In this document: one piece after another, positions 27,049-30,204 of the stretch
Layout: every line of letters starts with the position of its first letter
Position numbering within the stretch: the stretch's first letter is position 1
Origin: Isosphaeraceae bacterium EP7
GTDB taxonomy: Bacteria > Planctomycetota > Planctomycetia > Isosphaerales > Isosphaeraceae
Length of the DNA stretch: 64,000 nucleotides
Direction: 5' to 3'
Assembly: GCA_038400315.1 (NCBI GenBank)
Contig: CP151667.1
Span: forward strand, 6,521,174-6,585,173
Position numbers and translations under genes: made by a program
Notes under the pieces: generated by a model
The model's input: the letters and a program-made list of their open reading frames with translations, nothing else
Told to the model about the DNA's origin: nothing
The model's database searches: none

Positions 27049-27424
27049 GACCAACGCACCTTTCGCTCGACCATCCAACAGACCAAAGGCATCCTCTGGC
27101 GGGTCCCGCCCGTGCGGGACGCCACCAACCCTCAATCCTATGCGACCCCCGTGCCCAAGGCCAGTCCGGGGGGATAAGTGGTCGCCCCTCGCGACGGGCC
27201 GACTAGGTATTTACGGCATCGGCGACGCAATCCGAAGTTCCTGAGCCGGAACCAACTGCCCCGCCATCAATTTCGCCCGGGTCAACGCCTCGATTTCCCG
27301 GTCAAGCTCCCACATCCAATCGACATCAACATCCCAGGGCAAGATCCTGTAAACTTGAAAATGCTTCCGTAGACAACAAAATTTCACGGCAAGGACAAGA
27401 GTGTGTTTTTGCAGGAGGATGGCA
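27049..27424. other. Intergenic stretch with a sigma-gene fragment
   Basis: The left part is the upstream region of the HPF/RaiA-like gene. 27182-27312 is a diverged fragment of the sigma-fusion gene (listed separately). From about 27310 the base composition turns AT-rich, leading into the foreign-looking gene at 27425. Confidence 0.6.
27182..27312 (-). pseudogene. Fragment of sigma-fusion gene C-terminus (diverged copy)
   Basis: This segment aligns with 28678-28806, the 3' end of the intact sigma-fusion gene plus its downstream flank. It shares long blocks such as the stretch around 27263-27312, but with many substitutions. It therefore looks older than the exact 448-bp repeat nearby. It is the distal remnant of a second gene copy whose middle part is replaced by the gene at 27425-27952. 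Confidence 0.75.
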
Positions 27425-27952
27425 ATGTTGGGGAAACTGCGAGAGCTGTTAACATCGTGCGATGCTTTTGATTCACCTTTTCAACAAAAAATATCATCGC
27501 GTTTGGTCTTATTCCCAACAGATGGTTTCTTGCTGACTCAACGGCAGTTTGAGGCACTCAGCGTTGCTTCGAGCCTTTCAGGCGACACAACAGGATACTG
27601 CGTAATCACGGAAGGTCTTGACCTATCCGAGGAGGAAGTCCCGAACTACCACGAGTTCAGCTTCCGGGATTATGCCGGTTATCGCGGGCTCCGAGATTCG
27701 GGCTGTATATTACAGGAAAACGTGCTTCTATCGAATTGTGGTTCCTGGGTTGTGCTGATCTCTCAGGAGTTTCATGCGCTGCTTGGATGTCCAGATATAC
27801 TCATGACTGAATTCCTCCGTTCATACCCAGAGGGATGTACGGAGTTCGATCGATTCGTCGAAACCTGGAAAGCTAACGCTGCACGGATCGGTTCGGACAT
27901 TTCATGGCTGTCAAACTTCCGTGCTCATATGCATTCACATAATCCTGAGTAA
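27425..27952 (+). CDS. Low-GC hypothetical protein inside a broken sigma-gene copy
   Basis: A 175-residue soluble protein of unknown family. ATG 27425 lies six bases after a perfect AGGAGG (27413-27418); in-frame ATGs at 27401 and 27419 are too far or too close. The sequence is rich in Phe, Ser, Leu and Cys (LLTSCDAFDSPFQQK, LSNCGSWVVLISQEFHALLG) and uses A/T-ending codons unlike every neighbour, which points to transfer from a lower-GC donor. It lies exactly where the middle of a duplicated sigma-fusion gene should be. The look resembles small immunity or cargo proteins, but no motif supports that. Confidence 0.65.
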   Translation: MLGKLRELLTSCDAFDSPFQQKISSRLVLFPTDGFLLTQRQFEALSVASSLSGDTTGYCVITEGLDLSEEEVPNYHEFSFRDYAGYRGLRDSGCILQENVLLSNCGSWVVLISQEFHALLGCPDILMTEFLRSYPEGCTEFDRFVETWKANAARIGSDISWLSNFRAHMHSHNPE

Positions 27953-28046
27953 TCATATCGAATTGGCATGGGGGCATCGGCGACTGATAACCCAGCACGA
28001 GCGCCAAGCCCGAGACGAATCCGGCCGCGAGAACCTTGAGTTTGGT

Positions 28047-28222
28047 TAGGAGTTACGCAGTTGACCGTCAGCGGGACGAATTGGCCGTGAACCTGGGAGA
28101 TCTGCGTAGGGTGGGCACCGCCCACCAGGAGTGAGCCCCCGCGGTGGGCGGTGCCCACCCTACGGGAATTGCTCAAATTGCCAGCCGTCTGGCCCGGTCT
28201 TGGGCTAACTGCGTCACTCCTA
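28047..28222. mobile_element. 176-bp MITE with 16-bp terminal inverted repeats
   Basis: The ends are TAGGAGTTACGCAGTT (28047-28062) and its complement with one mismatch (28207-28222). The flanks carry TTTGGT at 28041-28046 and 28223-28228, and the intact gene copy has this word only once, so it is a target-site duplication. Inside is a perfect 21-bp inverted repeat (28106-28126 / 28143-28163) built around GTGGGCACCGCCCAC. No coding capacity: it would need a transposase in trans, possibly of the IS5/IS4 kind (inference from end sequence). Confidence 0.85.
28106..28163. repeat. Perfect 21-bp inverted repeat inside the MITE
   Basis: Arms 28106-28126 and 28143-28163 are exact complements with a 16-base spacer. 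The core GGTGGGCGGTGCCCACC is a palindromic word I associate with dispersed intergenic repeats of planctomycetes and cyanobacteria. Confidence 0.85.
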
Positions 28223-28670
28223 TTTGGTGATGAGCATGGACCTGAGGACTCCTTCCGTCAGTGAGAGGACACCGGTCGGGACCGACCCGGCCAGCTTGCC
28301 CGCCGCGGCGAACCGCGTCACGGCGTCGACCGTGGTGCCCGAAAGCTTGGAGAGCGAACACGTCAGATCGGGGAAGAGGACCGGGGAAACGCCGGCCAGG
28401 CCGCGTCGGGTGAGACGCCCCTTGAGCCGCTCACGCCCGCGAGCCCGCCAGGTCTTGACCGTCCTCACCGACCGCCCGAGTCGATGCGCGACCTCCTCGC
28501 AGGTCTGGCCTTCCAGGTCGCACAGGACGATGGGCACGCGATAGCGCTCCGGCAGGCGGTCGAGTTCCTCGTGGAGGATGGCCGACCGCTCGTCCCGGTC
28601 GTCGCCCGGCCATTCGTCGGGCTTCGCACCCCGCATCATCAGGGCCCTGCTCCGGCCCTCTCGGGCCCTG
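28223..28670. repeat. 448-bp direct repeat, copy 1
   Basis: This stretch matches 29428-29875 base for base as far as I compared, at an offset of 1,205. It codes the sigma region 4 part and linker of the fusion gene. The absence of substitutions means the duplication, or a later gene conversion, is recent. Confidence 0.9.
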
Positions 28671-28707
28671 TGAGGTCGTCGCCCCTCGCGACGGGCCGAT
28701 GCGACAT

Positions 28708-30204
28708 TTACGGCACCAGCGGCGCAACCAGACGTCCCCGAGCCGGGGCCGGCTGCCCCGCCATCAATTTCGCCCGGGTCAACGCCTCGATTTCCCGCTC
28801 AAGCTCCCTCATCAATTGCCTGACGTGCTCGGCCTGGTGCTCGAGACTCCGAACGGGTTCCGCGACGGCTTCTCCCCCGGCCGCGCCGGGCACCTCTCGC
28901 CTCATGAGATGTCCCCCGACGATCCGCTCCTCCACCTCGATAAGGAGCTTCTCCTCCGCCTCCTGAAGGTGGCCTTGGTCGAGAAACTTCCGGAGCTGCC
29001 GGAGGCGATCCTCGACCTGGCCCTGGACCTCTGGCGTGTGGTTCACGATCAGGCTGATGCTCAGGAAGAACGGCTTGATCGTGCCGACTTTCTGATTCCC
29101 GACGTCGCCTGGCTCCTGCACAACGCCGTTCTCGTCCATGATCTGCCACGTCCCCGGCGCCACGGAGGAGGTGATCAGCTCGATGATCGGGCCCAGGTCG
29201 ACCGAGGCGCCATTCTTGTTGCGCCCCCCGTCAATGCCGGGGCGAGACAGGACCGGATGGATCACGTCGCCGACGTAATAGTTCCTCGTGATGATCTCGG
29301 TCGCCCCGGCTTCCACGCCCCGCGTCGCAGACCGAGAGGCCCGCGGCGTCGGCCCCTGATAACCCAGCACGACCGCCGAGCCCGAGACGAATCCGGCCGC
29401 GAGCACGACCGCCGCGAGAACCTTGAGTTTGGTGATGAGCATGGACCTGAGGACTCCTTCCGTCAGTGAGAGGACACCGGTCGGGACCGACCCGGCCAGC
29501 TTGCCCGCCGCGGCGAACCGCGTCACGGCGTCGACCGTGGTGCCCGAAAGCTTGGAGAGCGAACACGTCAGATCGGGGAAGAGGACCGGGGAAACGCCGG
29601 CCAGGCCGCGTCGGGTGAGACGCCCCTTGAGCCGCTCACGCCCGCGAGCCCGCCAGGTCTTGACCGTCCTCACCGACCGCCCGAGTCGATGCGCGACCTC
29701 CTCGCAGGTCTGGCCTTCCAGGTCGCACAGGACGATGGGCACGCGATAGCGCTCCGGCAGGCGGTCGAGTTCCTCGTGGAGGATGGCCGACCGCTCGTCC
29801 CGGTCGTCGCCCGGCCATTCGTCGGGCTTCGCACCCCGCATCATCAGGGCCCTGCTCCGGCCCTCTCGGGCCCTGAGCTTCCCCGCCGCGCGGCAGGCCA
29901 CCCGATGCAGCCAGGGGCCCAACGAATCGCGGACCCAGGGCGTCCGGCCGCCGCGAGCCAGCACCAGGAAGGTCGCCTGGAAGGCGTCCATGGCCTCGTG
30001 CTCGTCGCGGAGCAGGCCCCGACAGGTGCGCAGGACCATCGGGCCGTGCCGCTCCACCAGGGCCGCGAAGGCCTGGTCGCCCCCCTCGTCGCGTCGGTCC
30101 GCGAACCGTTCCAGGAGCTGACCGTCCGTCAGGCCCCCCAACGTCCCGACCTGGAACAGCGTCGTCAGCACTCGCGAGGACGTCCCGCCGGGCGTCAGGC
30201 TCAC
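28708..30204 (-). CDS. ECF sigma factor fused to a membrane and extracytoplasmic domain
   Basis: A 498-residue protein. Residues about 40-215 are an ECF sigma factor: region 2 has EAMDAFQATFLVLAR, and region 4 has LPERYRVPIVLCDLEG and the helix-turn-helix EVAHRLGRSVRTVKTWRAR. A linker leads to one membrane helix (KVLAAVVLAAGFVSGSAVV, about 261-280). About 220 outside residues follow, ending in a coiled-coil-like helix (EHQAEHVRQLMRELEREIEALTRAK). Fusions of this kind are known from planctomycetes, where the sigma factor is tethered and probably controlled by its own sensor tail. No separate anti-sigma gene is adjacent. The 3' part has been duplicated downstream. Confidence 0.88.
   Translation of the reverse strand: MSLTPGGTSSRVLTTLFQVGTLGGLTDGQLLERFADRRDEGGDQAFAALVERHGPMVLRTCRGLLRDEHEAMDAFQATFLVLARGGRTPWVRDSLGPWLHRVACRAAGKLRAREGRSRALMMRGAKPDEWPGDDRDERSAILHEELDRLPERYRVPIVLCDLEGQTCEEVAHRLGRSVRTVKTWRARGRERLKGRLTRRGLAGVSPVLFPDLTCSLSKLSGTTVDAVTRFAAAGKLAGSVPTGVLSLTEGVLRSMLITKLKVLAAVVLAAGFVSGSAVVLGYQGPTPRASRSATRGVEAGATEIITRNYYVGDVIHPVLSRPGIDGGRNKNGASVDLGPIIELITSSVAPGTWQIMDENGVVQEPGDVGNQKVGTIKPFFLSISLIVNHTPEVQGQVEDRLRQLRKFLDQGHLQEAEEKLLIEVEERIVGGHLMRREVPGAAGGEAVAEPVRSLEHQAEHVRQLMRELEREIEALTRAKLMAGQPAPARGRLVAPLVP
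29428..29875. repeat. 448-bp direct repeat, copy 2 (within intact sigma-fusion gene)
   Basis: Source copy of the repeat at 28223-28670, lying inside the coding sequence of the intact fusion gene. At its left border the MITE target word TTTGGT (29428-29433) occurs once and uninterrupted. Confidence 0.9.

Follow-up and report, generated by a model that had tools for sequence, protein, structure and literature searches.

An IS701-type MITE with a nested REPIN in the genome of Isosphaeraceae bacterium EP7

A 176-bp MITE with IS701-type ends, found in the genome of Isosphaeraceae bacterium EP7, carries at its centre a pair of inverted, GTAG-tagged palindromes with the sequence features of a REPIN. 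The best reading of this arrangement, and a very probable one, is that a REPIN was captured by an IS701-type MITE, was moved as its cargo and was finally stranded in this host. The MITE and its empty site are confirmed, and in themselves they are ordinary; less so is the nesting of a REPIN foreign to the RAYTs found in the host, which makes a modestly novel variant of known systems. The element lies in a stretch of 64,000 nucleotides, here called the window, to which coordinates refer unless a contig (C) or locus (L) is named.

The MITE occupies positions 28047-28222 on the plus strand and is bordered by two copies of TTTGGT, at 28041-28046 and 28223-28228; a re-reading of the sequence thus confirmed the limits, 28041-28228, given in a preliminary description made from the sequence alone. 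The left terminal inverted repeat, TAGGAGTTACGCAGTT (28047-28062, plus strand), shares 15-17 bp, without mismatch, with the ends of several full-length IS701-type elements of related genomes, and it agrees with the right one, TAGGAGTGACGCAGTT (28207-28222, minus strand), at 15 of 16 bases, the same figure as first reported. TTTGGT is found only once, at 29428-29433, in a paralogous and uninterrupted sequence (CTTGAG-TTTGGT-GATGAG) which, in alignment, represents the empty, pre-insertion site; both the 6-bp target duplication and the empty site previously proposed are therefore present. No reading frame of at least 60 aa is wholly contained in the 176 bp, indicating that the element is non-coding. 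Small size, inverted ends, target duplication, empty site and dispersed copies complete the features by which it had been identified as a MITE, and the identification holds. When it is folded as single-stranded DNA, its stability exceeds that of 200 shuffled sequences by 7 standard deviations. Chance is not the explanation: when the window was shuffled 100 times with its dinucleotides kept, the REP had no match in any shuffle at up to 3 mismatches. The terminal-repeat pattern, taken by itself, is less striking; at the same tolerance it has 2 matches in the window, a number reached by 5 of 100 shuffles. The reality of the element is settled by two more full-length copies in the genome.

These copies were found by searching the whole host genome (7.2 Mb, 5 contigs) for further copies and for a full-length IS sharing the ends, as the preliminary description had proposed; the search also revealed three partial copies and one decayed IS, whose ends have 4 mismatches each. 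An absence of both would have spoken against the preliminary interpretation, which these results support. The full-length copies are three, including that of the window: the second (C1:2952730-2952905) is 92% identical and is flanked by a 5-bp CGCAG duplication, the third (C1:1777410-1777585) is 88% identical and has no target duplication. The partial ones start at C1:4135313, 256026 and 5951805. Among all host copies, the window MITE has the best-kept ends.

In the window, the MITE interrupts one of two copies of a sigma-70-like gene. The intact paralogue (28708-30204, minus strand) encodes 498 aa with sigma regions 2 and 4. On the minus strand the MITE begins with TAG, and these last three bases of the element, at 28220-28222, are the stop codon that terminates the frame of the interrupted copy (28220-28639, minus strand). 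The right flank, 448 bp at 28223-28670 (minus strand), is identical to 29428-29875. The left flank (27973-28031, minus strand) is 91.5% identical to 29345-29403 and is followed by a 15-bp deletion; it has 5 differences over 59 positions, and about 15 bases directly before the MITE are identical to the paralogue. The contrast between the two sides, 5/59 versus 0/448, has a Fisher p of 2e-5, a rough value because the left block was picked by BLAST. It suggests that the right flank was homogenised later; thus, the MITE may be older than this identical flank implies. Similarity to the paralogue is not uniform, and right-flank identity does not date the element. Region 27178-27320 resembles 28675-28816 with 85% identity, and the whole of 27178-30204 looks like an old tandem duplication of the sigma-70-like gene. 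The two units diverge by about 9-15% on the left and not at all over the 448 bp of the right side. A 183-aa frame (27401-27952) with no Pfam match takes the place of the middle of the left unit.

The centre of the element had been described as a perfect 21-bp inverted repeat. Its exactness stands, and by direct reading it extends to 22 bp (28105-28126 with 28143-28164); its interpretation as a mere inverted repeat was, however, incomplete. The repeated unit, GTAGGGTGGGCACCGCCCACC, consists of a GTAG tag followed by a palindrome and is present as an inverted pair: the first REP, GTAG-GGTGGGC-ACC-GCCCACC, is at 28106-28126 on the plus strand, the second at 28143-28163 on the minus strand, and the 16-bp spacer between them (28127-28142) has the same length in five copies from a related genome, G043, described below. 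Judged by its sequence, then, the centre is a REPIN, two GTAG-tagged REPs in opposite orientation, of the kind belonging to a RAYT family present in relatives. GTAG-tagged repeats have been described in Planctomycetes, in the passages of PMC3733652 considered here.

Of 45 genomes from the host's bacterial family, 20, the host among them, have the same REP at no more than 1 mismatch, with the copy number reaching 90 in G019, 89 in G038 and 68 in G043. In two relatives it is found, inverted, on both sides of a RAYT gene (G043:C576 and G030:C1, the right-hand REP of the latter with two mismatches), and the encoded proteins match the NF047646 profile for REP-associated tyrosine transposases with 172 and 171 bits (cut-off 80). 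The link between this REP and a RAYT comes from these two loci, because the MITE-type REP is lacking in 18 of the 20 Y1/RAYT-bearing stretches that were fetched, including five from G043 and five from G019; the five G019 stretches gave no cognate RAYT for the 90 REPs of that genome. In 13 further RAYT stretches no MITE-type REP was found with fewer than 3 mismatches, and many of their RAYTs are framed by other GTAGGG-type repeats.

In the host, a PF01797 search for Y1 transposases gave no matches, and a complete absence of RAYTs was considered; this was rejected in favour of RAYTs with another REP, since NF047646 detected three loci, two intact and one broken into two pieces (L277:878-1532, L278:966-1620 and L279:700-1333, at about C1:1489k, 5739k and 691k). 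At all three, the flanking REP is GTAGGGTCCGCTGTGCGGACC and not the GTAGGGTGGGC type of the MITE; GTAGGGTCCGCTGTGCGGACC has no copy in the window at up to 3 mismatches. The two intact host RAYTs are 95% identical to each other over the matched regions, 62-65% identical to a RAYT of genome G044 with the same kind of REP, and 49-52% identical to the two RAYTs flanked by the MITE-type REP. RAYT groups of this bacterial family appear to have each its own REP. MITE-type REPs of the host at no more than 1 mismatch are all inside MITE copies (8 of 8); at up to 3 mismatches there are 12, of which nine belong to MITE copies, while the other three, with 2, 3 and 3 mismatches, lie outside them. Hence the genome has neither a cognate RAYT among its three RAYT loci nor a high-copy, extragenic, free-standing set of these repeats. 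Because the three loci carry GTAGGGTCCGCTGTGCGGACC, the host REPIN appears orphaned and not part of a live REPIN population. However, one profile missed what the other found, which means that a profile can miss RAYTs and that a cognate one may still exist in the host.

The ends of the element point to a different partner. Their 17-bp form was found in at least 109 stretches among bacterial and archaeal genome contigs, from many phyla to judge by titles, and in 2 of 392 genomes, the host included, by an exact phylum-wide search; among viral contigs, the MITE ends gave 2 stretches. A complete element with a TTAAT duplication is present in Methanosarcina (L164:4264-5402, 1,139 bp), and its transposase scores 392 bits against NCBIfam NF049921, the IS701 family profile (cut-off 250). 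A search with this protein gave relatives in 14 of the 45 family genomes, the host included. Twelve of the 20 transposase loci fetched are elements of 1,069-1,084 bp with MITE-type ends, counted at up to 3 mismatches, and they span nine genomes; in six of them (L211, L212, L213, L215, L221 and L222) both ends are exact, and the L211 and L213 transposases score 344 and 373 bits with NF049921 (cut-off 250). Several transposases of the twelve are broken, by stops in L209, L210, L214 and L223 and by splitting into two pieces in L215; relatives also hold IS with MITE ends and an uninterrupted transposase. As for the other fetched loci, L224 is a 1,190-bp pair, L225 duplicates L215, and L216-L220 and L226 show no MITE-type end pair. 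The only IS701-type relative of the host itself (C2:46981-48053, 1,073 bp, ATATA on both sides) is decayed, with one stop, one frameshift and 4 mismatches to the consensus at each end; its protein resembles the L164 transposase at 47%, and its stretch had no match in a plasmid collection. The same L164 protein search gave no transposase match in G043, a genome that is 81% complete.

Target duplications are in agreement with this partner. Of the 71 end pairs of MITE size at the loci that were fetched, 38 have direct repeats of 5-7 bp just outside the ends (28 of 5 bp, 8 of 6 and 2 of 7), one has a repeat of 4 bp and 32 have none; in a control with 4,970 crossed end pairs, 14 showed a match of 5 or 6 bp. 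For longer end pairs the figure is 10 of 21 with 5 or 6 bp, in a list that includes evident mispairings. Duplication length fits the IS701-type group, 5 bp being the commonest and 6 the next; the window copy has 6. ISDge5, a member of IS701, is reported in the available part of PMC8533066 to have variable 5-bp duplications and ends CTCAGGAGTTGCACCT. Given its further copies in the genome, and the full-length IS701-type elements of relatives, whose ends are the same or almost so, the element is a MITE of an IS701-type transposon.

The composite is also present in G043, a genome from another genus of the family. Here the REP is found both free and, at the same position as in the host, inside 176-bp MITE copies. 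The 18 places that were read include free inverted REP pairs as well as MITE copies, and one of the free pairs is in a direct-repeat array; at L088:290-443, four direct REPs at 32-bp spacing are followed by one inverted REP. Twelve places in G043 match the 176-bp query well past the core. At six the match is full-length, and five of these six have duplications of 5-6 bp (L084 has none in register). In the host and in five G043 copies the REPs are at element positions 60-80 and 97-117, separated by 16 bp. Several of the MITE copies, at L083, L084 and neighbouring loci, are located among repeats of GATCTGAAATCTCGGATCTG-like sequence, possibly a preferred target. A pattern joining REP and end was found in 2 of the 45 family genomes, at 2 places in the host and 13 in G043, with zero mismatch allowed in the REP arm or end, so that diverged copies escape it and the host yields the window copy only.

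Outside ends and core, the arms of host and G043 elements are weakly alike, at 3.1 and 2.6 standard deviations, with 2 and 9 of 500 shuffles scoring as well. Common descent of the two composites, to judge from these alignments, is likely but not proven; so weak a likeness leaves room for two independent captures. A member of this MITE family lacking the REPIN was seen neither in the host nor in G043, so that the state before capture is unseen. Arms derived from the interior of an IS were considered and rejected: among the 60 matches listed in a blastn-short comparison of the window and G043 elements with 13 full-length IS, there are end matches of 11-17 bp and a single internal one, of 12 bp. 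Across MITE copies, the REPs vary less than the arms. In the three host copies, with differences pooled over the three pairs, 8 of 126 REP sites and 53 of 354 arm sites differ; in five G043 copies the differences per site are 0.038 for REPs and 0.06-0.09 for arms. The better conservation of the REPs is suggestive only, as these copies are few and non-independent; it is seen in both genomes, even though G043 has a cognate RAYT and the host apparently does not.

Taken as a mechanism, these data are best explained by the following sequence of events. A DDE transposase of IS701 type, recognising TAGGAGTKACGCRGTT-like ends, would move the non-autonomous MITE and duplicate 5 bp, sometimes 6, at the target. 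Transposase family and ends are seen directly in the full-length elements, while movement of the MITE is deduced from its copies, duplications and empty site. An ancestral MITE would have captured this REPIN, and the 176-bp composite would then have transposed as a unit in at least two genera of one bacterial family, as the identical architecture and the duplications outside the IS701-type ends suggest. In the host, its insertion truncated the second sigma-70-like copy. Both engines look absent from this genome today, the IS701-type copy being decayed and the RAYTs carrying a different REP, and the host MITE is probably a stranded fossil.

Other explanations account for parts of this picture. 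Hairpins are common in MITEs, and many MITE-sized pairs of other phyla have central inverted repeats of their own, of at least 12 bp; the palindrome could accordingly be the internal hairpin of an ordinary IS-derived element, unrelated to REPs. This is improbable, given that the exact GTAG-tagged palindrome flanks two RAYT genes, is found without MITE ends in G043 and is present in 20 of 45 family genomes. A more serious alternative, unlikely but to be considered, reverses the order of events: an IS701-type end pair would have formed around an older, resident REPIN, for instance when two nearby IS copies lost their insides around it, thus creating a new MITE. It would explain why the arms have no clear similarity to IS sequence inside the ends, why they measure 59 bp each with the REPIN exactly central, and why REPs on their own have a much wider distribution than the composite. 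Conversely, no locus was seen with a REPIN between two IS copies, and the central position could equally result from a chance insertion into a MITE of about 118 bp.

The remaining alternatives concern the mover and the empty site. Movement of the 176-bp element by a RAYT and not by the IS701-type transposase is highly improbable: the element is bounded by IS701-type ends and, beyond these, by duplications of 5-6 bp, RAYT-type Y1 enzymes are not known to make target duplications, and a different REP flanks the RAYTs detected in the host. In its favour is the fact that REPINs are, in the portion of PMC3116915 considered, the kind of element that RAYTs are thought to mobilise. Site 29428 might also be the product of excision or gene conversion instead of the pre-insertion state, as later homogenisation of the right side, suggested by the uneven divergence of the flanks (5/59 versus 0/448, p = 2e-5), could indicate. 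Yet the site lies within an intact 498-aa frame with both sigma-70 regions, as an ancestral site would, and regardless of what converted the right side it has the six bases only once; an origin by excision or conversion is distinctly improbable. Capture of a REPIN by an IS701-type MITE remains the preferred reading.

Compared with known systems, the element resembles IS701 insertion sequences (NF049921) and their MITEs in its ends over 15-17 bp, in the transposase family and in duplications of 5-6 bp; it differs in having no transposase, in sharing only the ends with the IS compared, in containing a REPIN and in its 6-bp duplication. With REPINs, or BIMEs, and their RAYTs (NF047646) it shares the GTAG tag, the 7-bp palindromic arms, the inverted pair and, in two relatives, a RAYT gene with the REP in question to its left and right; unlike ordinary REPINs, the one described here is nested in an IS701-type MITE and copied as part of it, in a host where the RAYTs found have another REP. 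A physical association of REPs and IS also occurs with IS elements that target REPs; there, as far as described in the part of PMC1525189 considered, the REP is a broken target outside the IS, whereas in the present case the mobile unit encloses the REPIN, which is copied along. The nesting of two kinds of mobile element is shared with the 'MITEtron' of Thiomargarita, a MITE inside a group I intron (PMC4853749, in the part considered), where the partners are different. No description of a REPIN inside a MITE was found in the open-licence literature, judging by titles and opening lines of abstracts among the matches listed; a search combining IS701, MITE and terminal repeats had no match, and one with the MITE sequences themselves gave nothing on such repeats, judging by titles.

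The usual picture, at least in the portion of PMC3116915 considered, ties a REPIN to a RAYT in its own genome. A REPIN riding in a transposon whose ends are so widespread, in at least 109 stretches from many phyla, would gain a horizontal or RAYT-independent route, and a comparison of the orphaned REPINs of the host with the live ones of G043 could gauge the role of the RAYT in REP conservation. A broader and more tentative proposal is that IS701-type MITEs may act as carriers of REPINs, allowing their spread by a second engine and their entry into, or persistence in, genomes where the RAYT of that REPIN is lacking, and that such carriers have arisen more than once. Recurrence is suggested by an acidobacterial MITE with the same ends (L146:283-483, AATAC duplication), which likewise frames a palindrome pair found free nearby. 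Inside it, a 29-bp sequence that bears a palindrome is present as an inverted pair; exactly the same 29 bp form a free inverted pair at L146:1152-1247, about 700 bp away on the same contig, with TTACGC on the left and no MITE ends recognisable by eye. L146 may thus be a candidate second case of REPIN-type nesting in a MITE; among viral contigs, its palindrome was found in 1 stretch, as a single copy. Eight MITE-like pairs of 141-143 bp that have the same ends (L099, L102, L116, L135, L136, L165, L171 and L198) share all or part of another internal inverted repeat, TTTCTCCCCCCTCCCCACGGCCC; seven of them, L198 not counted, are on Thermoflexus or Chloroflexota contigs.
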